Shown here piece by piece: positions 6,035 through 56,078 of a DNA stretch of 64,000 nucleotides. Every line of letters starts with the position of its first letter. Position 1 is the first letter of the stretch. The notes below the pieces were generated by a model that was given only the letters and a program-made list of their open reading frames with translations, did no database searches and had not been told where the DNA came from. The position numbers and the translations under genes are program-made. The DNA is taken from the NCBI RefSeq assembly GCF_011694515.1, contig NZ_CP050192.1, positions 1,975,131 to 2,039,130 on the forward strand. Reading direction: 5' to 3'. This DNA comes from Mycobacterium sp. DL592 (GTDB taxonomy: Bacteria > Actinomycetota > Actinomycetes > Mycobacteriales > Mycobacteriaceae).

Positions 6035-7639
6035 CTACGCGACGGTGAGGGCCGCTCCGTTCAATGTCCACCCGGACGCCGTGTAGCTGCCGGCCGGGAC
6101 GTTCGCCAGTCCGAGCGGCCAGAGGCTGGTGTTCTTCAGCGCGATGTTGGTGAATCGGATGCCGCTGACGCTGCCCGCATCGACGATGATCCCGGCATTT
6201 CGACCGGCGGTTGTCGGGGTGCTGGCGATCGTCAGTCCGGAGATGGTGACATTGCTGACACTCGTTCCGTTGTTGCCCGCGTAAATCAGAACCGCGCCCT
6301 GGATCACGCTGGTGCTGGTGTTGGCGCCGGTGACCGTGCCACCGGTGATGGTGACATTGCTGACCGAACTGGTGTACCAGGGCGCCCCTTCGGAGGCGAT
6401 GTAGATGCCGGCAGCCGAGGTGGCCGACACGGCGATGTTGTTGACGGTGATGTTGTAGCCCCCGACCACCGACAGCCCCCGACCCCAGGTGGTCCCCGCC
6501 ACCGTCGACGAGTTGATCACGATGTCGTGGGACGGCGCCGGATCGGCCCCATAGGAGACCACCGCGATGCCGTCGTCACCGGTCAGCTTGGTGGTGACGT
6601 TGGTGAGCTTGCCGAATGACGAGCCATTGGTGATGTGGACGCCGTCAGCGCGGGTGTTCTGGACGGTGACGTTGGACAGCGTGAAACCGCTTGCCCCGAA
6701 GACGAACACGCCTGCGGCCGCCGAGCCGGTGATGGTGACATTGCTGACGGTCGCGTTGTTGCCCAGGATGTTGAGGCTGTTCTGATTGAGTGAGTCGTAG
6801 CGGGTGCCGGTCAGCGGGGCGCTCAGATTCAGGTTGGTGAGCGTCACTCCGTTACCGACGATCGACAGCGACGACGTGGCGTCGTTGGTCGCCTGCAGCG
6901 TCGCACCGTTGCCGTTGATGGTCACGTTGGAGGCGTTGATCGTCAGGACACCGCTGTGCTTGTAGGTGGTTCCCGCGTTCAAGGTAAGAGTCTGACCGGA
7001 CTTCAGGTTGTCGAAGAGTGCCTGCAGCGATGCTGTGCTGTCCGTCGACGAGGCGCTCGGTACGACAGGCTTGCCTGATCCTCCGGTGCTGCGCCTCGCC
7101 GACGTCGACGCTGCGGCAGTGGTTTTCGTGGACGTCGCGGCTGCCGGCGATGCGGCGGCAGCCGGAGCAGCCGCACCCACGGCGGCGACGAGGCCGATGG
7201 CCAGGACCGCGGGTGACGTTCCGGTAGCCGCAGCCGCCGATGCCTCCTGAGGCACCGGCGGCGACGAAACCGCCGAAGGCACAGTCACGATGCTGGTTGT
7301 GCGGACCGAGGCGGGAAGGGCTTGTACCAGCGAGCGACTAGTCGCCTTCGGCACGCTCGCGGCCGATTGCACGCTCGTTCCGCTCGCCGTGCGAGCCGAT
7401 GCCGCCGACGCACTGGAAGCCGACCCTCCGCTACCTCCGGAGGAGGCGGAATGGTCTGCGGATCGGCCGCTGTCCGCGTGAGCCACCCCGCATGCGGTTG
7501 CCAACAGCGCGCTGGCGCCCAATGCGAGGACGCCTGCCGCCAATGCGGCATAAACCTCCGCAGGGCGAGGGAGTCCCTGTTTCTTAAGGGGTGTACGTAC
7601 TTTCGTGCCGACAGCGCCGACCAAGCCTGAGTTCCCCAT
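6035..7639 (-). CDS. Secreted parallel beta-helix repeat protein
   Basis: 534 residues. An N-terminal hydrophobic signal segment (about 28-55) precedes a long Ala/Ser/Thr-rich linker (55-205). The C-terminal part (about 210-534) is a right-handed parallel beta-helix in which a roughly 20-25-residue coil repeats with motifs such as SNVTITG, NNATVSNVTITG, SVSNVTISG and LTNVTTKLTG. Such folds occur in pectate-lyase-like polysaccharide enzymes and in passive surface proteins. I see no catalytic signature, so an enzymatic role is not claimed. Asn and Val recur at the turn positions. It is a single gene, transcribed toward the TetR gene. Confidence 0.8.
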   Translation of the reverse strand: MGNSGLVGAVGTKVRTPLKKQGLPRPAEVYAALAAGVLALGASALLATACGVAHADSGRSADHSASSGGSGGSASSASAASARTASGTSVQSAASVPKATSRSLVQALPASVRTTSIVTVPSAVSSPPVPQEASAAAATGTSPAVLAIGLVAAVGAAAPAAAASPAAATSTKTTAAASTSARRSTGGSGKPVVPSASSTDSTASLQALFDNLKSGQTLTLNAGTTYKHSGVLTINASNVTINGNGATLQATNDATSSLSIVGNGVTLTNLNLSAPLTGTRYDSLNQNSLNILGNNATVSNVTITGSAAAGVFVFGASGFTLSNVTVQNTRADGVHITNGSSFGKLTNVTTKLTGDDGIAVVSYGADPAPSHDIVINSSTVAGTTWGRGLSVVGGYNITVNNIAVSATSAAGIYIASEGAPWYTSSVSNVTITGGTVTGANTSTSVIQGAVLIYAGNNGTSVSNVTISGLTIASTPTTAGRNAGIIVDAGSVSGIRFTNIALKNTSLWPLGLANVPAGSYTASGWTLNGAALTVA

Positions 7640-47589: not shown

Positions 47590-48705
47590 TCAATGAGCGC
47601 CGACACCCCAGTGCAGCACCCGCGAGGTGACCAGCACCAGGGCCAGTGACACCGCGGCTACCACGACAAGCCCGATGACGGCCACAACCAGTGGACGCCA
47701 CCCGGTGCGGGCCAGTTCTCGGAAGTTGGTGTTCAGGCCGACCCCGGCAAACGTGAGCAGGAACGCCCACTTCGATACGTTCGCAAGGTTCGTGCTCTGG
47801 CCTTTGGTCAGCAAGCCCGCGGTCGCGATGGCCGATACCGCCAAAAAGCCCAGCACGAACTTCGGGAACTTCTCCCAGATGAATCGCGCCTTCGCGGCGA
47901 ATCCCGGAGCGATCTGGTCGGCCTCACCGCGGGATGCCCAGTAGAGCGCGAAGCCCAAGACGACGAATCCGATCAGTGAGTTGCGGACCGACTTGACGAG
48001 AACGGCCAGCTTCCCGGCTTGTTCCGAAAACAAATAGCCGGTGGCGGTGGTCTCCGCGGTGTTGTCCACCGCGAGCCCGGCCCACAATCCGAACTCGTGG
48101 TCACTGAGACCCAGCAGGTGCCCAAGCACCGGCAGCGTGAACAGGGCCACCGCACCGAGGGCCAGGATGGCCGCGATGGCATAGCTCACATCGGAGTTGC
48201 GGGCGCGGATCGCCCCCTTGGATGCAACGATCGCCGACACCCCGCAGATCGACGTGCCGATCGCCAGCAGCGAACCGAGCTTGCCCGACAGCCCGAAGAG
48301 GCGCGCCGCGGCCAGGATGATCGCGCCGGCAATCGTCATGTCCAGAAGGATCTGAACGAGTGAGATCCCTCCGAGCTTGACGATGTCGCCCAGGACGAAC
48401 CTCGCCCCCAGCGCGACGATGCCGATCTTGAGCCAGAACTCGTAGGTCTGGACACCGGGTCGAAAGATGCGGTGCACGCCGACGGTGTTGGCGACCAGTA
48501 GTCCGAACACGATTGCCCACAGCACATACTCGATGTCTGGGACTGTCCAATGTTGGTGCTTGGCAAGCGAATTCCACCACACCTGGGCGTACTTGCCCAA
48601 GAGTCCGATCCCGACCAGAAGCAGCACGCCAGGGATGTAGTCGAGCAGGTTGCGACTGGTGAAGATCGGTTCGTCGGTGTCGGAGGCGACCTCTACTGTG
48701 CTCAT
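47590..48705 (-). CDS. YeiH-type putative sulfate exporter (PSE family)
   Basis: 371 residues with about ten transmembrane helices: [60 protein letters not shown] (the family signature) and [19 protein letters not shown]. The family is annotated as putative sulfate exporters but transport has been little tested. It starts at ATG 48705. A 46-residue membrane microprotein is encoded four bases upstream on the same strand, so both should be translated from one mRNA. Confidence 0.9.
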
Positions 48706-48961: not shown

Positions 48962-49756
48962 CTACTTGCCCGTCGAACCGGTCGCGGGAATCGGCGGCGG
49001 GCAGTAATCGTGGTCCTGGAGCTGCTCTCCCCCAGCGATGTCGCCGGTCACGCTGTCCGCACGGTCGGCCAACACCACGAATCCCGGACGCCCACCCACG
49101 TCCTCGGCGCCGACCACGACCAGGGTGTAGAGCCCCATCTCGGCGCGAGCCCCGTCGATCCCGTCGGCCAGCAGCGTGAACGGGTTGGCGGCCAAGTCGA
49201 CGCCCGGCACCGCGATCGCCCAGTACGAGTGCCCGGTGAGCGGTATCGGGAACGGTGCCCACGTCGGCCCGATCAGGGCGGCGTCGGCGCGCAACGCGTC
49301 GCGGACATCGGTGCGCACACAATCGAGGTGGATGTGCAGCTGGTTCTGGGACCGCGCCACCGCCGAATTGATGGCCAGGCTCATCCAGTCGCGCGGCAGC
49401 GTCCCGCCGGCCCGCTGCTCGACGAATGCCCGGGCCTGCCAGGCTTCGGCGAAGTAGTTCGTGGCATCAGGTGCGAGCAGCTCGGGGCTCTCGATACCGG
49501 CCATCCGCGCGGTGGGAAGAAGCAGGTATTGCCGGGCCCCGTCGATGTCCTTCATGACGGCATAGCCACGCTGCTCGCCGGCGCTGAGATCGACCCGGGA
49601 ACACGGTGCCGGATCGTGGTGCGCACCTTCGTCGGCGACACACTGGTCGTGCACGATCGTCCACAGCGCATTGGGGTCGGCCTGGGCGCCGACCGGACCG
49701 GCGAGCCAGCCCAGCACGACCATCCCGACCAGCACGACGAGGCATCTGCTGCGCAT
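48962..49756 (-). CDS. cdh: Exported CDP-diacylglycerol pyrophosphatase
   Basis: About 264 residues: signal peptide (about 1-26, VGAQA-DP) and a HIT-like Cdh domain with the nucleophilic-His motif NQLHIHLDCVR, plus GYAVMKDIDGARQYLLLPT and LTGHSYWAIAVPG typical of bacterial Cdh (M. tuberculosis Rv2289). The enzyme hydrolyses CDP-diacylglycerol to phosphatidate and CMP. It starts at ATG 49756 (GTG 49762 is also in frame). A small gap separates it from the histidine-kinase gene upstream on the same strand. Confidence 0.9.
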   Translation of the reverse strand: MRSRCLVVLVGMVVLGWLAGPVGAQADPNALWTIVHDQCVADEGAHHDPAPCSRVDLSAGEQRGYAVMKDIDGARQYLLLPTARMAGIESPELLAPDATNYFAEAWQARAFVEQRAGGTLPRDWMSLAINSAVARSQNQLHIHLDCVRTDVRDALRADAALIGPTWAPFPIPLTGHSYWAIAVPGVDLAANPFTLLADGIDGARAEMGLYTLVVVGAEDVGGRPGFVVLADRADSVTGDIAGGEQLQDHDYCPPPIPATGSTGK

Positions 49757-49797
49757 TGTCACACCCTAAGGTCGGCGACGGCCGTCCGGCCGAGTTG

Positions 49798-51456
49798 TCA
49801 GGCCGCCGAGGTCGATTTCAGGCTCGGGCCGGCTGCCTGCTGGCCGCGCGGGAGCGGTACCTCGACCCGGACGTGGGTGCCCACCGCAACCGGGATGAAT
49901 TCGAACACCCCGTTGGAGGCTTCGACTCGGGCGCGGTGTGAGGCCAGTCCGATATGTCCCCGGGCGACCTTCTCCTGTGCGGCAGCTGGATCCACGCCCA
50001 CGCCGTCGTCCTGGACGTCGAGACGGTAGCTGTCCCCGACGAGGGCCAGGTGCACCGAAGCGGAGGTCGCCCCGGAGTGACGGACGACGTTGGACAACAG
50101 TTCGCGCACCACCCCGAAGACGATCCCGTCGACCGCCGTGGGACCAGTCTGATCGACGAATGTCGCGATCTCGATGTCTGAGCGGCGAGCGGTGTCGTCG
50201 GCGAGCTTCTCGACGGCGGGTCCGAGCCCGAGCTGTTCGACGACCACCGGGTGCAGTTCGAATACCGCCTCGCGCAGCCTTGCGGTGGCGTCTTCGAGGC
50301 TGCGCAACGCGCGGTCGATGCGCGGGTCGGGCGATGCCGACGCCAGTTCCATCAGGTCCTGCCGTGCCACGACGATATCTTGCAGCGCGCCGTCATGGAT
50401 GGCCTCGGCCACTTCGCGCTGCAGCTTGTCGGTCGCCGTCATGGTCGACGCCAAGAGTGCCTCTCGAGATCCGATGAGCTCGGCGATCTCGCCGAAATGG
50501 TTCTCGGCGAGGTAGGCAGCCACGAATCCGATGAAGCAGAACGCGGTGTAGACACTGATGACCAGTGCGGTCTGCAGCGGCCCGAGGGCTTCGGTGACAG
50601 ATCCTTCCCGCAGCAGCGCGACGACGAATGCGGCATTGACGATGACCAGTACCACCGCGGCTCCACGCCACGACACCTCCGGCACCACGATGAACGGAGC
50701 GAGCGCCAGCACCAGAAGTGGAAGCGGGCCTCCTGCCGATACCAACTGAAAGCCGAAGACAACCGACACATCGGCCAACGCGAACACCAGCAGTCGCTCG
50801 GGTGTCAGCGTCGCAGGTCCGCCGGGGTGGAAGGCCACCACAAACGCTGAAATCGCCGCAGCGGCATAGCAACCCAGCAGCACCTTCTGTGCGAGCGGGT
50901 GAGCTGAGGGGGCCTGCAGCAGCGCTGTCGATATCAGAATCGCCACTGTGCCGACACGGAAGATCGACGCAACGCGCAGTCGGCGGATCTGGTGCTGGCG
51001 TGCGACATTACCCAAACTCGACCAACGTTGCTCAGCGGCAGCGTCTTTGATCTCCCAGCTCTGCCGGCCGACGACTTTCGAGGTCACCACGGCCACCACC
51101 GCGAAGAACACAAACACCAACAGGGCGTTCATGCGTTGCACACTTTGCGTGTCAGCCAGATCGGAGAGGAGAATGTTCAGCGCCATTGCACTGGCTGCCG
51201 CGGCGAACAAGCCCAGACCGATCCCCCACAGCGCGGCGGTCACCACCACACCGACCAGGAACAGTGCGGCAAACGCTTCGGCATACTGGCTCTTGAAGAG
51301 AACCAGGGCGAACGTCTCGACAACGATGAGGCCCGCCGCGATCGCGAATCCCAGTGCAGCAGAGGGCGGCCGGCCGCGCAGGAAAGCCGATCTCAATGCT
51401 GCCCTGATCCCAAACGGGTTGTCGTCCGTCGTGGGCGAGGCGGGAACGGCACTCAT
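49798..51456 (-). CDS. Membrane histidine kinase, NarL/UhpB type
   Basis: 552 residues. The N-terminal half has two groups of transmembrane helices (about 34-125 and 165-316) with a short soluble segment between them. The HisKA_3 dimerisation helix carries the phospho-acceptor His354 in EAIHDGALQDIVVARQDL. The ATPase domain has the N-box RELLSNVVRHSG (Asn456) and G-box QDDGVGVDP. No periplasmic sensor domain is apparent, so sensing may occur in the membrane. The partner is presumably the NarL regulator at 52772. A soluble degenerate paralogue is encoded at 54172. Confidence 0.92.
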   Translation of the reverse strand: MSAVPASPTTDDNPFGIRAALRSAFLRGRPPSAALGFAIAAGLIVVETFALVLFKSQYAEAFAALFLVGVVVTAALWGIGLGLFAAAASAMALNILLSDLADTQSVQRMNALLVFVFFAVVAVVTSKVVGRQSWEIKDAAAEQRWSSLGNVARQHQIRRLRVASIFRVGTVAILISTALLQAPSAHPLAQKVLLGCYAAAAISAFVVAFHPGGPATLTPERLLVFALADVSVVFGFQLVSAGGPLPLLVLALAPFIVVPEVSWRGAAVVLVIVNAAFVVALLREGSVTEALGPLQTALVISVYTAFCFIGFVAAYLAENHFGEIAELIGSREALLASTMTATDKLQREVAEAIHDGALQDIVVARQDLMELASASPDPRIDRALRSLEDATARLREAVFELHPVVVEQLGLGPAVEKLADDTARRSDIEIATFVDQTGPTAVDGIVFGVVRELLSNVVRHSGATSASVHLALVGDSYRLDVQDDGVGVDPAAAQEKVARGHIGLASHRARVEASNGVFEFIPVAVGTHVRVEVPLPRGQQAAGPSLKSTSAA

Positions 51457-51576
51457 GTATTGGGCTCCGGGGACGGAAATCGATCTGACAATGCGAATTG
51501 TCTTAGCACTGGGGCCGTCGGCATATGCCGATTTTGCGAGAACTCGGCGGGCAGTGCCGACGTTTGGCCGGCACTG

Positions 51577-52500
51577 TCACCGCTTGTGTCCGCGGTACCG
51601 GGCGCTGCCCACTGAAGCGGACGTCCCCGGCTTGGTGTCGGCGGCCGGCGTGCCGCGCCGCGCGACAGTCGCCGCGGGCGAGGCGGTGGCGGAATGGTTG
51701 ATGTTCACTCCGGGTGCCGACTGGGAGACGACGGCCGAGTTCTGGTTGATCGACCCGGCGAGCGCGACCGGACCCTGGCCAGATCTGACGACGTTGTTGG
51801 AGCCGAATGCGCTGAATGCCAGACCTGCGTAAGCGGTGGTGCGTGCTCCCCCGGCTGCGACGTCGTTGTTGGTGCCGGCGACATTGACCGCAACCTCACC
51901 GACTCCATAGGCGGCGACGTGTTGAACGGTCTGCGCGGTGCGATCGCCGAACACGTTGACGGCCAGGCTGAACGCCCCGTCGGCCGTCACCGCGTTGTTG
52001 GTCAGTGTGCTGTTGGCCAGGTTGAGGGCAATGTTGCCGACAGGTGTGCCTGTGCTGAGCTTGCCCGCGCGAGCTGAGACGTTCTCGCCCCAGGCGGCGG
52101 CCAGGCTGAAGTAGCCCGCTGCGGTCGCCCCACCGGCGTTGCCCAGTCGTGAGGCCACATCGAAGGCGCCGGTTCGAACGTCGGCGTGGGTGTCGTCGCC
52201 GATCGCCGCGGCACTGCTGAACAAGGCGCCGGTATCGACTGTTGCCGAGGTGCTGATGCCCGCCGCAATGGCCACTGCGAACAGTCCGTTGGCCTGTGCG
52301 CTGGCGCCGGTACCGATGGCGATCGCAATGCCGGTGGGCCCGCTGGTGCACTCGGCGCTCGTGCTCATCCCGAAGAAGGAGGCACAGCTGGCGTTGGCTG
52401 CGGGTGCGACGGTCAGTGCGCCGAATGCGCCGGCGACGACCGCTGCCGCCATGAGGCTGCTTGCGAACGAGGGCACTGAAGGCTTTGGGAGCGTGGTCAT
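51577..52500 (-). CDS. Secreted Ala/Gly-rich repeat protein with YadA-head-like pattern
   Basis: 307 residues: signal peptide (about 1-38, APAANA-SC) and a long Ala/Gly/Asn-rich region with an approximate 14-16-residue periodicity, for example GTGASAQANGLFAVAIAAG, AAAIGDDTHADVRTGAFDVA, TAAGYFSLAAAWGENVSARA. The A.AIG....A....S.A pattern recalls the left-handed beta-roll (Hep_Hag) repeats of trimeric autotransporter heads. Two Cys near the mature start may pair. There is no anchor or translocator domain; the C-terminus is basic (SARYRGHKR). It lies between the kinase and the regulator, divergent from the latter, and shares a promoter region with it. Confidence 0.72.
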   Translation of the reverse strand: MTTLPKPSVPSFASSLMAAAVVAGAFGALTVAPAANASCASFFGMSTSAECTSGPTGIAIAIGTGASAQANGLFAVAIAAGISTSATVDTGALFSSAAAIGDDTHADVRTGAFDVASRLGNAGGATAAGYFSLAAAWGENVSARAGKLSTGTPVGNIALNLANSTLTNNAVTADGAFSLAVNVFGDRTAQTVQHVAAYGVGEVAVNVAGTNNDVAAGGARTTAYAGLAFSAFGSNNVVRSGQGPVALAGSINQNSAVVSQSAPGVNINHSATASPAATVARRGTPAADTKPGTSASVGSARYRGHKR

Positions 52501-52571
52501 GGCTGCCAGCGTGGCAGTCGCGGAGCGGGGAGTTCTATCGGGAAGACGGGCCTCGAAAGTGGGGACAGCTG

Positions 52572-52591
52572 TGTCCGTAAAACGACGGACA
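52572..52591. promoter_or_regulatory. Palindrome TGTCC-N10-GGACA (copy 1)
   Basis: TGTCC at 52572-52576 and GGACA at 52587-52591 with exactly ten bases between; the flanks extend to GTGTCCGT...ACGGACAC. It lies in the divergent promoter between the secreted repeat protein gene and the response regulator gene. An additional GGACA half-site is at 52563-52567. The same 5-10-5 element occurs at 53997. Candidate site for the NarL-type regulator. Confidence 0.5.
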
Positions 52592-52771
52592 CGATTCGCT
52601 CTGCGTTCGTGCCGACGCGTTCCTATTTGCAATATGAACCTATTGCATGTTTTCCGGCTCTCAGTTCTGTACCGCCCCAGCGAGTTTGCCCAAGTGGCAT
52701 ATCCGGCCACCGAAGTAGCGAACGCCGAATCCCCACCCCAAAATCGGTGCCGTTATGCGAAGCTGCCAATC

Positions 52772-53419
52772 ATGAACAGCGCGGCACCGGTACAGGTAAT
52801 CGTCGCCGATGACCATCCCGTATATCGGGAGGGCCTGGTGCGGGCATTGCAGGAATGCGACCACACCACCGTCGTGGCAGAGGCCGACACTGGCGATGCG
52901 GCGCTGGCCCTCATTCGTGAGCACCAACCCGACGTGGCGCTGCTGGACTATCAGATGCCGGGCCTGAATGGGTCGGAGATCGCCGCCGCGGTACGGCAGG
53001 AGGGTCTGCCGACGAGAGTTCTTCTGGTGTCGGCGAATAGAGATTCGACACTGGTGTACCACGCGTTGCAGCGGGGCGCGGCTGGATTCTTGCCGAAGGA
53101 ATCGGCGCGCTCTGAGATCGTTGCCGCAGTGCTGCAGTGCGCCGACGGACAGGAGGTGCTCTCGCCTGCGCTGGCGGCCGGACTTGCCCTCGAGGTCCGG
53201 CGTCGCGGGGAAAGGCCGCCCACCGCAACGCTGAGTGCTCGGGAACTCGAGGTGCTCAAGCGAATTGCCAAGGGACAGACCGTTGTCGTGATTGCCGACG
53301 AGTTGTTCCTGGCTCCCTCGACAGTCAAGACTCACGTTCAGCGCCTGTACGACAAGCTCGGAGTCAGCGATCGCGCCTCGGCGGTGGCCGAAGCCATGCG
53401 CCAGGGTCTCGTGGAGTAG
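52772..53419 (+). CDS. NarL/LuxR-family response regulator
   Basis: 215 residues: receiver domain (about 6-122) with the acidic pocket VADDHP, phospho-acceptor Asp59 in DVALLDYQMPG and a conserved Lys in GFLPKESARSE, then a LuxR-type helix-turn-helix (LSARELEVLKRIAKGQTVVV, PSTVKTHVQRLYDKLGVSDR). It should be phosphorylated by the kinase encoded at 49798-51456. The start is ATG 52772. The two flanking intergenic regions share a TGTCC-N10-GGACA palindrome that could be its binding site. Confidence 0.93.
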   Translation: MNSAAPVQVIVADDHPVYREGLVRALQECDHTTVVAEADTGDAALALIREHQPDVALLDYQMPGLNGSEIAAAVRQEGLPTRVLLVSANRDSTLVYHALQRGAAGFLPKESARSEIVAAVLQCADGQEVLSPALAAGLALEVRRRGERPPTATLSARELEVLKRIAKGQTVVVIADELFLAPSTVKTHVQRLYDKLGVSDRASAVAEAMRQGLVE

Positions 53420-53434
53420 CCGTCGCGCAACTGC

Positions 53435-53482
53435 CAACAGTGGTGTGGCCTACCCCGATCGGGATACGTCACACCACTGTTG
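53435..53482. terminator. Hairpin terminator between the regulator and a convergent secreted-protein gene
   Basis: A 13-bp perfect inverted repeat: CAACAGTGGTGTG (53435-53447) pairs with CACACCACTGTTG (53470-53482). The 22-nt loop holds a second small palindrome, CCCGATCGGG. Confidence 0.8.
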
Positions 53483-53505
53483 TTGTCGGACTGCAGGGTC
53501 CGCGT

Positions 53506-53754
53506 TCAGGGGGCGGTCGGCGGGGCCGGGTTCGCGCCGGTGCTGGTGGGCGCCTTGGGCACGGACGGAACCCGCGGCTTCGGCGGCGTGCGGTTCACAA
53601 CGTTGGCAGTGATGGTGTCGACAGCGCCGGCCGAGGTCAGGCCGCTGAGGTCGCCGATGGTGGCGTTGGCGATGCCGGTCGCTGCGCCGAGCAGGCCGAG
53701 GGCCATGACCGAGCCGGCGAGATAGGTGGTGAGTTTCTGGGTCGCTGCGTTCAT
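53506..53754 (-). CDS. Small secreted protein with Pro-rich tail
   Basis: 82 residues: signal peptide (about 1-31, TGIANA-TI), a short middle (GDLSGLTSAGAVDTITANVV) and a Pro/Ser/Thr/Lys-rich tail. There is no Cys. ATG 53754 has an AGGAGAAT ribosome binding site. Function unknown. It is convergent with the response regulator, and its own upstream region is shared with the divergent pseudo-kinase gene, where a second TGTCC-N10-GGACA palindrome lies. Confidence 0.75.
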   Translation of the reverse strand: MNAATQKLTTYLAGSVMALGLLGAATGIANATIGDLSGLTSAGAVDTITANVVNRTPPKPRVPSVPKAPTSTGANPAPPTAP

Positions 53755-54171
53755 GAGATTCTCCTGGGTAAGGGCGATGCCGGTTTTTGTTCTGTTGGCC
53801 GGGTGTTCCTGGCCTGAAATGAACTATTGCAGCGGGATTGGTTGGGCTGTATCGGCAAAAGGGATCTCGAAGTTGATGACACCATCTTCCCCAATTTGGA
53901 GGACAGTCACACCGAAATGCGCTGTTCCGCAATTTATTCAGCGTTCCGCGCCAGTCGGCACGAGAATGGCCGGGCACCGCCACCGGGGCAGGCCGGTGTC
54001 CCCCATTCGGTGGACAGAAGTTCCGGACATTTGACCGATACCGCGGCATACGCCACCGTGGAAAAGTTCTTCTGTGTTTCGACTGGGAGTCGGCGATCCT
54101 GACTGCCCGGCATCGATGCTTGGATGCGCAGCATCCCAGTGGTCCAAGAGACCTAGAAGGTGGGCAGACAC
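53755..54171. other. Divergent intergenic region in the two-component island
   Basis: About 417 bases between the small secreted protein gene (minus) and the pseudo-kinase gene (plus). It must contain both promoters. GGACA half-sites occur at 53901, 54012 and 54025, and one complete TGTCC-N10-GGACA palindrome is annotated separately. A + strand open frame covering 53726-54034 runs antisense through the start and ribosome binding site of the secreted-protein gene and is not accepted. Confidence 0.5.
53997..54016. promoter_or_regulatory. Palindrome TGTCC-N10-GGACA (copy 2)
   Basis: TGTCC at 53997-54001 and GGACA at 54012-54016, again with ten bases between and a 5' G and 3' purine flank, as at 52572. 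It lies about 155 bases upstream of the pseudo-kinase gene and 240 bases upstream of the secreted-protein gene. A further GGACA follows at 54025. Confidence 0.5.
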
Positions 54172-54852
54172 ATGGCTGCGGGGCCGCAGATCGAGGTATG
54201 TCAGCACCAGAGTGACGCTCCCCCCGGTTCGTATCCGGCGAACGAACTACTGGCCGCGGTGCTGCAGCGTGCCGACAGCCTCAGACAACATGTCGCCCGC
54301 CGGATCCAGGACGGTGCGCTGCAGGACCTCCTGGTCGCTCGACAGGAACTGGTCGAGCTTTCGGGAAGCTCGGACCGCGCCGGAATCGATCGTGCCGTAG
54401 CGAGTCTGGACGTGGCGTCGACGCAACTGCGTGAGGCGGTGTTCGACCTGAATCCCGTTGTGATCGAGAGGATCGGCCTCGCCGACGCGATCGAACTGAT
54501 AGCGCGACAGACGGAGCTGCGATCCGGAATCGCCATTGTGACCGACGTTGACGATGCCGGAGCGCGAAGCTCTGCCCAACCGATCGTGCTGGGTGCCGTG
54601 CGTGAAGTGCTCTGCAGCGTGGTTCCCTCTGCGCAGGCAACGCAGGCCGACATCACGCTCCGGGTGGTCGATGACGGCATTTCCCTCGACATAACCTTCG
54701 ACTGCCCGCGGGCAGGGTCGGCGGCGGAGGACGCCGGACTCGCAGCGCAACGGGCACGGATCGAAGTCAGTGGCGGGCAGCTGGCGGCCGCTGAGGCGCA
54801 GGGCACCGCCCGCATACACATCGAGATGCCGATCCGCGATCAACCCGCATAA
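54172..54852 (+). CDS. Soluble degenerate histidine kinase (pseudo-kinase)
   Basis: 226 residues, no transmembrane segment. It aligns over its whole length with the C-terminal half of the kinase at 49798-51456: RRIQDGALQDLLVARQELVE against EAIHDGALQDIVVARQDLME, and TQLREAVFDLNPVVIERIGL against ARLREAVFELHPVVVEQLGL. The phospho-acceptor His is Gln46, the N-box Asn is Ser149 (REVLCSVVPSA) and the G-box DDGVGVD is lost (TFDCPRAGS). It should neither bind ATP normally nor be phosphorylated, yet the frame is intact. It could pair with the real kinase or titrate the regulator. ATG 54172 is chosen. Confidence 0.82.
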   Translation: MAAGPQIEVCQHQSDAPPGSYPANELLAAVLQRADSLRQHVARRIQDGALQDLLVARQELVELSGSSDRAGIDRAVASLDVASTQLREAVFDLNPVVIERIGLADAIELIARQTELRSGIAIVTDVDDAGARSSAQPIVLGAVREVLCSVVPSAQATQADITLRVVDDGISLDITFDCPRAGSAAEDAGLAAQRARIEVSGGQLAAAEAQGTARIHIEMPIRDQPA

Positions 54853-54887
54853 GCGGACTAGTAATCGCTATCTATCCGCATATGCGG
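54845..54887 (+). promoter_or_regulatory. Two CCGCATA(A/T)GCGG sites upstream of the mop-modA operon
   Basis: CCGCATAAGCGG at 54845-54856 and the perfect palindrome CCGCATATGCGG at 54876-54887, 31 bp apart (about three helical turns, same face). They lie just before the helix-turn-helix plus Mop-domain regulator gene at 54910, the first overlapping the end of the pseudo-kinase gene. Likely operators for molybdate-responsive autoregulation. Confidence 0.55.
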
Positions 54888-54909: not shown

Positions 54910-55317
54910 ATGCCCACCATCAGAGTCCGCGAGGCCGCCGAACTGCTCGGCGTCAGCGACGACACCGTTCGGCGATGGATCGACGACGGCGCCCTGCCGG
55001 TCAGCAACGACGCGGCCGGGCGCAAAACCATCGACGGTGCCGCGCTGGCCGCCTATGCCCGAGACCACGCCGCAACCGCACCGAAAGACCCACTGGCGGT
55101 CGCCAGCTCGGCGCGCAACCGGTTCGCCGGTCTGGTGACCCGAGTGGTCACCGACACTGTGATGGCCCAAGTCGAGATGCAGTGCGGCCCGTTCACCGTG
55201 GTCTCGCTGATGAGCAGTGAGGCCGTGCGCGAGCTCCAGCTCGAGCCGGGCAGCATCGCCGTCGCGGTGGTCAAGGCGACCACGGTCATCGTCGAGACCC
55301 CGGGCGGTCAGTCGTGA
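54910..55317 (+). CDS. Molybdate-responsive regulator: excisionase-type HTH plus Mop/TOBE domain
   Basis: 135 residues. The N-terminal MerR/excisionase-like helix-turn-helix is IRVREAAELLGVSDDTVRRW then IDDGALPVS. The C-terminal Mop (TOBE) domain begins SARNRFAGLVTRVVTDTVMA and contains LMSSEAVRELQLEPGSIAVA and VKATTVIVE, the molybdate-binding type. It is thus a compact ModE analogue found in actinobacteria. The start is ATG 54910. Its stop overlaps the GTG start of modA by four bases (GTGA). The paired palindromes upstream suggest it controls its own operon. Confidence 0.9.
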   Translation: MPTIRVREAAELLGVSDDTVRRWIDDGALPVSNDAAGRKTIDGAALAAYARDHAATAPKDPLAVASSARNRFAGLVTRVVTDTVMAQVEMQCGPFTVVSLMSSEAVRELQLEPGSIAVAVVKATTVIVETPGGQS

Positions 55318-56078
55318 CCCGGCGGTGGCCCGCACTGGCCACGGCGCTGCTGCTGGCCACCCTCCCCGCCTGCGGGTCGGGACAGAACTCGTCGGCGCCC
55401 GCCGGTGAGAAGATCGTGGTGTTCGCCGCGGCGTCGTTGAAGAAGACCTTCACCGCGATCGGTGACCAGTTCAGCAAGGACAATCCCGGATCGTCGGTCG
55501 AGTTCTCCTTCGCGGGGTCCTCCGATCTCGTCACCCAGCTGACCCAGGGCGCCCACGCCGACGTCTTCGCGTCCGCCGACACCAAGAACATGGACAAGGC
55601 TGCGGCGGCCGGCCTGCTTGGCGGTGCTCCCGTCAACTTCGCATCCAACACCCTGACGATCGCGGTGGCGCCGGGAAACCCCAAGCAGATCAGCACTTTT
55701 CGGGATCTTGCCAAGCCCGGGATCAGCGTCGTCGTCTGCGCGCCACAGGTGCCGTGCGGCTCGGCGGCCCAGAAGGTCGAGACCGCCACCGGCGTCGAGC
55801 TCACCCCGGCGAGCGAGGAGTCGTCGGTGACCGACGTGTTGGGCAAGGTGACCAGCGGGCAGGCTGACGCCGGCCTCGTCTACGTCACTGACGCCGCCGC
55901 GGCCGGCGACAAGGTCACCGCGGTACCGTTCCCAGAAGCTTCCGGGGCGGTCAACACCTATCCGATCGCGACCCTCAAGCAGGCCCAAAAGCCGGACCTG
56001 GCAAAGAAATTCGTCGATCTGGTCACCGGCCCGGCTGGTCAGCAGATCCTCGCCAAGGCGGGTTTCGGGACCCCCTGA
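55314..56078 (+). CDS. modA: Molybdate-binding lipoprotein ModA
   Basis: 254 residues: lipoprotein signal with lipobox LPAC, then a ModA periplasmic-binding-protein fold with VVFAAASLKKTFTAIGDQFS, FSFAGSSDLVTQLTQGAHAD and VFASADTKNMDKAAAAGLLG. These supply the Ser/Ala/Tyr oxyanion contacts typical of ModA. It delivers molybdate to a ModBC ABC transporter, but no modB or modC follows; the next gene is an unrelated phosphodiesterase. The transporter must be encoded elsewhere or have been lost. Translationally coupled to the regulator. Confidence 0.94.
   Translation: MTRRWPALATALLLATLPACGSGQNSSAPAGEKIVVFAAASLKKTFTAIGDQFSKDNPGSSVEFSFAGSSDLVTQLTQGAHADVFASADTKNMDKAAAAGLLGGAPVNFASNTLTIAVAPGNPKQISTFRDLAKPGISVVVCAPQVPCGSAAQKVETATGVELTPASEESSVTDVLGKVTSGQADAGLVYVTDAAAAGDKVTAVPFPEASGAVNTYPIATLKQAQKPDLAKKFVDLVTGPAGQQILAKAGFGTP

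Follow-up and report, generated by a model that had tools for sequence, protein, structure and literature searches.

Five genes inserted between CDH and mop

Within a 64,000-nucleotide stretch of DNA from Mycobacterium sp. DL592 (contig NZ_CP050192.1, positions 1,975,131 to 2,039,130; hereafter the window), five genes between positions 49798 and 54852 encode a membrane sensor histidine kinase, a NarL/FixJ-type response regulator, a soluble degenerate (pseudo-)histidine kinase, and two predicted exported proteins. We refer to these genes together as the island. The kinase (49798-51456, minus strand; 552 amino acids (aa), with Pfam matches to DUF4118 and HATPase) consists of a DUF4118 module, membrane segments, a NarL-type (HisKA_3-like) dimerization and histidine phosphotransfer (DHp) domain, and an ATPase domain, and its H354, D355, Q359, N456, and DxGxG residues are all intact. 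The regulator (52772-53419, plus strand) combines a receiver domain (3.9e-26), in which the acid pair D13 and D14 and the phospho-accepting D59 are present, with a GerE domain (1.8e-17) containing a LuxR-type helix-turn-helix (HTH). By their sequences, the two proteins qualify as a NarL/FixJ-type two-component system. The degenerate kinase, called the pseudokinase below, is encoded at 54160-54852 on the plus strand (230 aa from a GTG, with an alternative ATG start at 54172; the database version has 197 aa) and is predicted to adopt DHp and ATPase folds. The exported proteins are a 307-aa member of a dispersed mycobacterial family with a CASFFG..STSAEC motif (51577-52500, minus strand) and an 82-aa protein with a signal-like N-terminus (53506-53754, minus strand); both export calls were made on the N-termini by eye rather than with a dedicated signal-peptide program, aided for the 82-aa protein by a scripted rule. 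Two intergenic regions are divergent (52501-52771 and 53755-54159), and an inverted repeat between the convergent regulator and 82-aa genes (53435-53482; 24-nt arms, 88% complementary) is terminator-like, judged by its position. An earlier reading of this DNA from its letters alone (the sequence-only reading) had named the same five genes, with the same coordinates and gene types, around two divergent promoter regions; domain searches, residue checks, and N-termini bear this description out.

The five genes are an insertion of roughly 5 kb exactly between the genes for CDP-diacylglycerol pyrophosphatase (CDP-diglyceride hydrolase, CDH; 48962-49762, minus strand) and mop, an HTH and TOBE molybdenum-binding regulator (54910-55317, plus strand) that is followed by a modA-like gene (55314-56078, named by eye). 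This conclusion follows from a comparison of 16 kb around mop in ten genus members, picked among the best mop matches: CDH and mop are direct divergent neighbors in eight of these regions (L135, L138-L144), and the stretches fetched for the remaining two, L136 and L137, did not include CDH. The physical insertion supports treatment of the five genes as a set. By eye, the mop promoter of the eight relatives contains two CCGCATATGCGG-type palindromes, and so does that of the window (54845-54856 and 54876-54887). The distal palindrome overlaps the pseudokinase stop codon and marks the right edge of the insertion. The last residues of P0007, a second copy of the pseudokinase (207 aa), differ from those of the window protein at this overlap, as expected if the junction falls at the end of the pseudokinase gene. 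The HTH-TOBE protein may itself use the paired palindromes before mop as its operator. On the left side, the kinase gene stops 35 bp ahead of CDH on the same strand (gap 49763-49797), and given this spacing the insertion may have exposed CDH to read-through from the kinase gene. Farther left, a YeiH-type transporter gene (47590-48705 in the window) was found in L135, L142, and L144 and as a short remnant in L138; within the stretches fetched, no such gene was found in L139-L141 and L143.

The GC content at third codon positions (GC3) is 0.77 in the kinase, 0.75 in the regulator, and 0.73 in the pseudokinase genes, compared with 0.82-0.87 in seven flanking genes; the exported-protein genes (0.80 and 0.89) show no comparable deviation from the flanks. 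Plasmid origin was considered and rejected: none of 471 records that match the kinase covers 80% of it and all are below 60% identity, and the pseudokinase gave one 27% match.

Searches of the genus covered 396 genomes for the pseudokinase and kinase and 198 genomes for the 82-aa and 307-aa proteins, the own genome included, with the seven best candidates per genome scored for the pseudokinase and the three best for the kinase. The sequence-only reading had offered conserved synteny as a check, such that lack of co-occurrence of the five genes in relatives, together with lack of regulator dependence, would speak against a signaling unit. The first of these two findings was obtained, in that the five-gene set was not found elsewhere in the genus genomes searched. 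The pseudokinase had matches at 1e-30 in 77 of the 396 genomes, own included; none of the matches listed outside its own genome exceeds 42% identity, and all of these fall within frames of at least 347 aa, and hence within kinases. The kinase had a match at 1e-90 in 39 of the 396 genomes, again including its own, and none of the other matches listed starts before residue 124 or exceeds 47% identity. Among the best candidates per genome, neither an orthologous kinase nor an orthologous pseudokinase was present in the 395 other genomes. Among 5.8 billion proteins, the pseudokinase is close only to itself and to P0007 (89% by BLAST), whose contig has 1,343 bases; the pseudokinase query gave no match against genome contigs. 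The closest full-length relatives of the kinase (P0016-P0029, from 8000 candidates scored) are 43-56% identical, and 12 of the 14 contain the DUF4118 module. An alignment search with long kinases returned seven loci at 33-37% identity and was uninformative for orthologues. The 82-aa protein had no homologue in 197 other genomes, and its candidate identification as Microcin E492 was rejected (25 bits against a cut-off of 50). The 307-aa protein matches no Pfam family, and a search with it returned a single relative at 39%; counting the own genome, which gave eight matching rows, 39 of 198 genomes contain members of its family. Members of this family have a CASFFG..STSAEC start and a Gly/Ala/Asn-rich body, and some genomes carry several copies (L157-L185).

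Loss of catalytic residues and retention of the DHp core in the pseudokinase

The nearest relative of the pseudokinase in its own genome is the neighboring kinase (43%, 2.1e-36), and no Pfam family matched it at an E value of 1. Compared with 16 aligned kinases, and numbered as in the island kinase, the pseudokinase has the changes H354 to Q, H402 to N, N456 to S, H460 to S (C in P0007), D483 to F, G500 to E, and H501 to D, and G485 and G487 are deleted. By contrast with these losses, D355 and Q359 are kept (D51 and Q55 of the pseudokinase, where Q50 stands at the phospho-His place), so that the DxxxQ motif is retained. The two domains have fared differently: 11 of the 14 DHp columns that are invariant in the 16 kinases are kept, compared with 11 of 23 in the ATPase domain, and identity to the neighboring kinase is 53% in the DHp and 34% in the ATPase domain. 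In the DHp domain, the three losses are an Ala and two histidines, the phospho-His (now Gln) and that of the LHP motif (now Asn); in the ATPase domain, they include Asn and His of the N-box, the lid residues GHI, and the residues of DxGxG. Thus, by homology and residue loss, the protein fits the definition of a pseudo-histidine kinase, in agreement with the sequence-only reading, which had called it a soluble paralogue of the kinase that lacks catalytic residues.

An AlphaFold2 model built from 19 sequences predicts a DHp and ATPase fold (predicted local distance difference test (pLDDT) score 79; predicted template-modeling score (pTM) 0.72). The best Foldseek matches of this model are DesK structures, including the phosphatase-state complex 7ssj (rank 13); DivL follows at rank 26. 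We attribute the low overall TM-scores (0.4-0.5) to a hinge between the two domains. A tree of 84 DHp-ATPase regions places the pseudokinase pair with the island kinase in a long DUF4118 clade (98/92), apart from the kinases of kinase-regulator-kinase loci; where in this clade the pair belongs is uncertain (83/36).

These results bear on whether the pseudokinase is a functionless decaying copy carried along as a passenger of the insertion. Such decay would account for the failure to find an orthologue in the 395 other genus genomes, for the long stem branch of the pair (1.64 in the 84-region tree), which also tells against the feedback model proposed below, and for the GC3 of 0.73 and the missing sensor. 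However, the open frame is kept in both copies, which are 87-89% identical, and the columns lost in the window protein are also lost in P0007, where one of them has a different residue. Moreover, the GC content by codon position (0.77/0.48/0.73) is typical of a coding gene, and catalytic residues were lost while the DHp core was kept. We therefore regard decay as unlikely.

Assignment of the island regulator to class A

We defined class A as homologues of the regulator that have a same-strand kinase gene after them. The regulator set comprised 47 loci, from which L224, a stretch of the own genome lacking a regulator, was dropped (leaving 33 + 12 + 1), and the 33 class-A loci were chosen by regulator similarity, not by the presence of a binding site. 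A second class, B, looks like NarL by sequence, and the N-terminus of M. tuberculosis NarL reads almost like those of class B. At 12 positions that separate the two classes, the island regulator agrees with class A at nine, with class B at two, and with neither at one. In the regulator tree, it lies within a clade that has 24 class-A rows (97/99) and outside the class-B clade (99/99). By these diagnostic positions and the tree, the island regulator is a NarL-type regulator of class A, and it is 65-69% identical to class-A members. The next regulator of the own genome is 53% identical and belongs to neither class, and no second class-A regulator turned up in this genome. The island regulator is therefore the only visible candidate there for reading the class-A dyad described below. 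The 53% identical regulator lies with an adjoining kinase about 16 kb to the left of the window (G000:C1:1958000-1959288; L318, L003).

Class-A regulator-kinase operons, for which we know of no name, resemble the island in regulator class, dyad, and small exported proteins. They differ in that the usual class-A kinase, which is 36-41% identical to the island kinase core, stands downstream on the same strand, and in that no pseudokinase was seen in them. The island kinase belongs instead to a NarS-like, DUF4118-containing lineage, and its pairing with the regulator is a guess from sequence and gene position.

One account of a NarS-like kinase beside a NarL-type regulator would be that the pair is plain mycobacterial NarS/NarL (Rv0845/Rv0844c), accompanied by passengers. 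The nearest solved receiver by sequence is indeed that of M. tuberculosis NarL (3eul), and kinases that flank NarL-like regulators share 54-57% identity with the island kinase core. Like the island, NarS/NarL and the loci L145, L146, L149, and L150 place a NarL-type regulator beside a NarS-like kinase, and in these four loci two kinase-family genes flank one regulator. In contrast to these systems, the island regulator groups with class A and not with the NarL-like class B, whose promoters lack the dyad; the second kinase-family protein is a sensor-less pseudokinase; the kinase has a DUF4118 module; and exported-protein genes intervene. On the class-A positions (9/12) and the regulator tree, we reject identification of the island as NarS/NarL and consider this account very improbable. 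In L145, L146, L149, and L150, the NarL-like regulator stands between two related kinases; by eye, the flanks of L148 and L150 look like ketosteroid or aromatic catabolism genes.

A putative class-A operator between the 82-aa and pseudokinase genes

Each of the two divergent regions contains one TGTCC-N10-GGACA dyad, and the window has no further exact copy. Among 2000 pairs of shuffled sequences, 4 came to share a dyad with five-base arms, in a test devised after the dyad was noticed. Class-A promoters contain a fuller dyad, about TGTCCCCCGATCGGTGGACC, located 34-60 bp before the start. With up to two mismatches, the pattern TGTCCMCCNATYGGNGGAC was found in 26 of the 33 class-A regulator promoters, some of which had served to derive it, and in 0 of 13 class-B promoters; across 20 shuffles, a match of this kind came up for 1 of the 33. 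We then scored the window with a symmetrized matrix made from class-A regulator promoters of other genomes only. The best position in the 64 kb is the putative operator TGTCCCCCATTCGGTGGACA at 53997-54016 in the 82-aa/pseudokinase divergent region, which scores 25.1 bits, compared with 7.8 bits for the next best, and has one mismatch to the TGTCCMCCNATYGGNGGAC pattern. Three of the five best positions fall in the two divergent regions of the island: this site, a second weak operator-like site at 53886-53905 (rank 3, 7.6 bits), and the weak dyad at 52572-52591 upstream of the 307-aa and regulator genes (rank 5, 5.9 bits). This last dyad, 190 bp from the regulator start, is the only one in the promoter of the island regulator.

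Shared control of the 82-aa protein and the pseudokinase by the regulator is well supported by these matches, and wiring of the island through 53997-54016 is, in our judgment, probable. The sequence-only reading had included both secreted proteins in the output of the unit. For the 82-aa protein, the site at 53997 supports this proposal. For the 307-aa protein, the case for regulator control is weak: its own dyad, at 52572, counts for little because matches to TGTCC-N10-GGACA on its own are not clearly more numerous genome-wide than those of the reversed control (8 compared with 6), and no dyad was found near other members of its family (0 of 29 loci at three mismatches). That the pseudokinase belongs to the signaling unit agrees with its sharing of the top dyad of the window with the 82-aa gene, although the tuning role that was also proposed for it is inferred. 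The description of the unit as self-contained was too strong, because the dyad pattern recurs at three other places in the own genome (1072045, 3223973, and 5078187/5078212, the last ahead of a gene for a 94-aa exported protein).

In an independent test across 13 chosen genomes, all of which bear class-A regulators, TGTCCMCCNATYGGNGGAC with one mismatch allowed gave 49 forward and 48 reverse matches, and the pattern read backwards gave 0 and 0. We examined 48 sites, as three-kilobase stretches, that belong neither to class-A promoters nor to the window. At 22 of the 48, an open frame of 45-120 aa that encodes an export signal lay within 20-260 bp; the corresponding counts were 27 of 288 at shifted positions, 203 of 2400 at random positions, and 2 of 29 at mop promoters (22/48 vs 27/288, Fisher 8e-9 if sites are taken as independent, many being orthologous across related species). 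One or more of the frames counted, L275 among them, may be spurious. Recurring types of exported proteins by the dyad include those with an HHHHQW... ending, those bearing DLGHNDWVNN, and those with a YVPWGAWINGSY ending, and six small exported proteins that were tested had no Pfam or NCBIfam match above cut-off.

These data could also mean that the dyad serves a different regulator of the genus, that the island regulator controls other targets, and that the site near the pseudokinase is unrelated to it. Many dyad sites do stand at a distance from all class-A regulator genes, the island regulator, at 65-69% identity, has diverged from class A, the link between dyad and regulator comes from sequence, and the scan was confined to genomes bearing class A. 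Nevertheless, the site is found in 26/33 class-A but 0/13 class-B promoters, the only dyad site of G225 and of G361 stands in the promoter of the regulator itself, and the island regulator is class-A-like. Assignment of the dyad to another regulator thus seems improbable to us.

A proposed feedback loop closed by the pseudokinase

We propose that a two-component module, in which a class-A regulator stands beside a long NarS-like DUF4118 kinase, was inserted between CDH and mop. Once phosphorylated, the regulator would act at 53997-54016 and thereby control the divergent genes for the 82-aa protein and the pseudokinase, and it would also act at the other genomic copies of the dyad. The pseudokinase, under the same control, would bind the phosphorylated regulator, or pair with the kinase, through its retained dimerization and docking domain and would damp the signal, in the simplest version as a histidine- and ATP-independent phosphatase acting through DxxxQ and otherwise as a decoy. 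It would then close a feedback loop, which may work by phosphate removal, regulator sequestration, or kinase stimulation. Binding of the dyad by the island regulator, kinase-regulator pairing, the direction of control, and pseudokinase activity are the steps that we infer. As a whole, this is our best explanation, to which we give about an even chance of being right. Judged by its sequence, the pseudokinase is most likely a feedback modulator of the regulator, as a phosphatase or a decoy; if the wiring holds, we see a damping role as evenly balanced between true and false.

The phosphatase version is favored by the retention of DxxxQ in both pseudokinase copies, although overall we would sooner expect it to fail than to hold. 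PMC3510030, for NarX, and PMC11502775, for the HisKA_3 family, give DxxxQ as the phosphatase motif. The pseudokinase resembles the phosphatase state of NarX in this motif and that of DesK in its predicted fold. NarX and DesK, unlike the pseudokinase, are full sensor kinases that bind nucleotide.

Damping by phosphatase activity is not assured, given the behavior of two other proteins. A laboratory-evolved ChrS of C. glutamicum with a ruined ATPase domain is described as phosphatase-defective and raises output via another kinase (PMC9491836), and the DivL pseudokinase of Caulobacter is described as neither kinase nor phosphatase and yet binds its regulator (PMC4211667). By analogy, the island pseudokinase might read or recruit the phosphorylated regulator, or pair with the kinase, and so raise output, and DivL is among its fold matches (rank 26). 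The likenesses to both proteins are partial. As in DivL, the phospho-His is replaced within a DHp-ATPase fold and no kinase role is expected; DivL has PAS domains and is described as retaining its ATP motifs (PMC4211667), whereas the island pseudokinase has no sensor and has lost these motifs. It is also set apart from the DivL family in that it has no Pfam domain and that its closest proteins are NarL-type kinases, in comparisons that included no aligned DivL sequence. As with ChrS, a kinase with a ruined ATPase domain stands beside an intact paralogous kinase, but ChrS is a laboratory mutant with a membrane sensor and an intact His (PMC9491836), while the island protein is natural, soluble, and His-less. 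In addition, a mere scaffold would not need the DxxxQ motif that both copies retain. We consider an output-raising role doubtful, if less so than decay of the gene.

Several other observations weigh against damping feedback through a class-A operator. The island regulator has a long branch in the tree (0.99), and class A is not a single clade but has class B nested inside it. Seven of the 33 class-A promoters lack the dyad, the sole site in G316 lies outside the promoter of the regulator, and 9 of the 48 sites were mechanically flagged as lying inside long frames; the use of some counted promoters to derive the pattern and the orthology of many of the sites, both mentioned above, point the same way. 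In the island itself, the putative operator at 53997-54016 sits 252 bp from the 82-aa start, compared with 20-143 bp at the 22 counted sites. Ungapped words common to the promoter regions were no more frequent than in shuffles.

If the proposed feedback is correct, a spent kinase copy has been kept as a regulator of its system of origin, beyond the alphaproteobacterial cell-cycle example. The dyad also provides a concrete putative operator through which a widespread mycobacterial two-component system can be linked with families of small exported proteins. A more far-reaching version, which we hold tentatively and think somewhat unlikely, is that a natural, sensor-less pseudokinase derived from a NarL-type kinase, without histidine and ATP binding but with DxxxQ, acts as a free-standing off-switch for the regulator and under its operator, and that the insertion has taken over a regulon found across the genus. 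A regulon made up of small exported, partly histidine-rich proteins is part of this joint claim and shares its tentative standing. The class-A dyad regulon has apparently not been described previously: a literature search made by description rather than by motif letters, and reaching few subscription papers, returned no description of the dyad, of this regulon, or of such a pseudokinase. MnoSR of M. smegmatis, too, is a two-component system of a mycobacterium and has a palindromic binding site, but the MnoR consensus is reported to occur once in its genome (PMC11303327), in contrast to the recurring island dyad; the two were compared by description only.

At several loci (the centers of L280, L294, L298, and L307, and L224 at 6188-6571), the dyad stands between or before genes for small exported proteins, often a divergent pair. 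In such pairs, one protein has an HHHHQW-type histidine-rich tail and one contains DLGHNDWVNN, and these proteins are possibly metal-binding.

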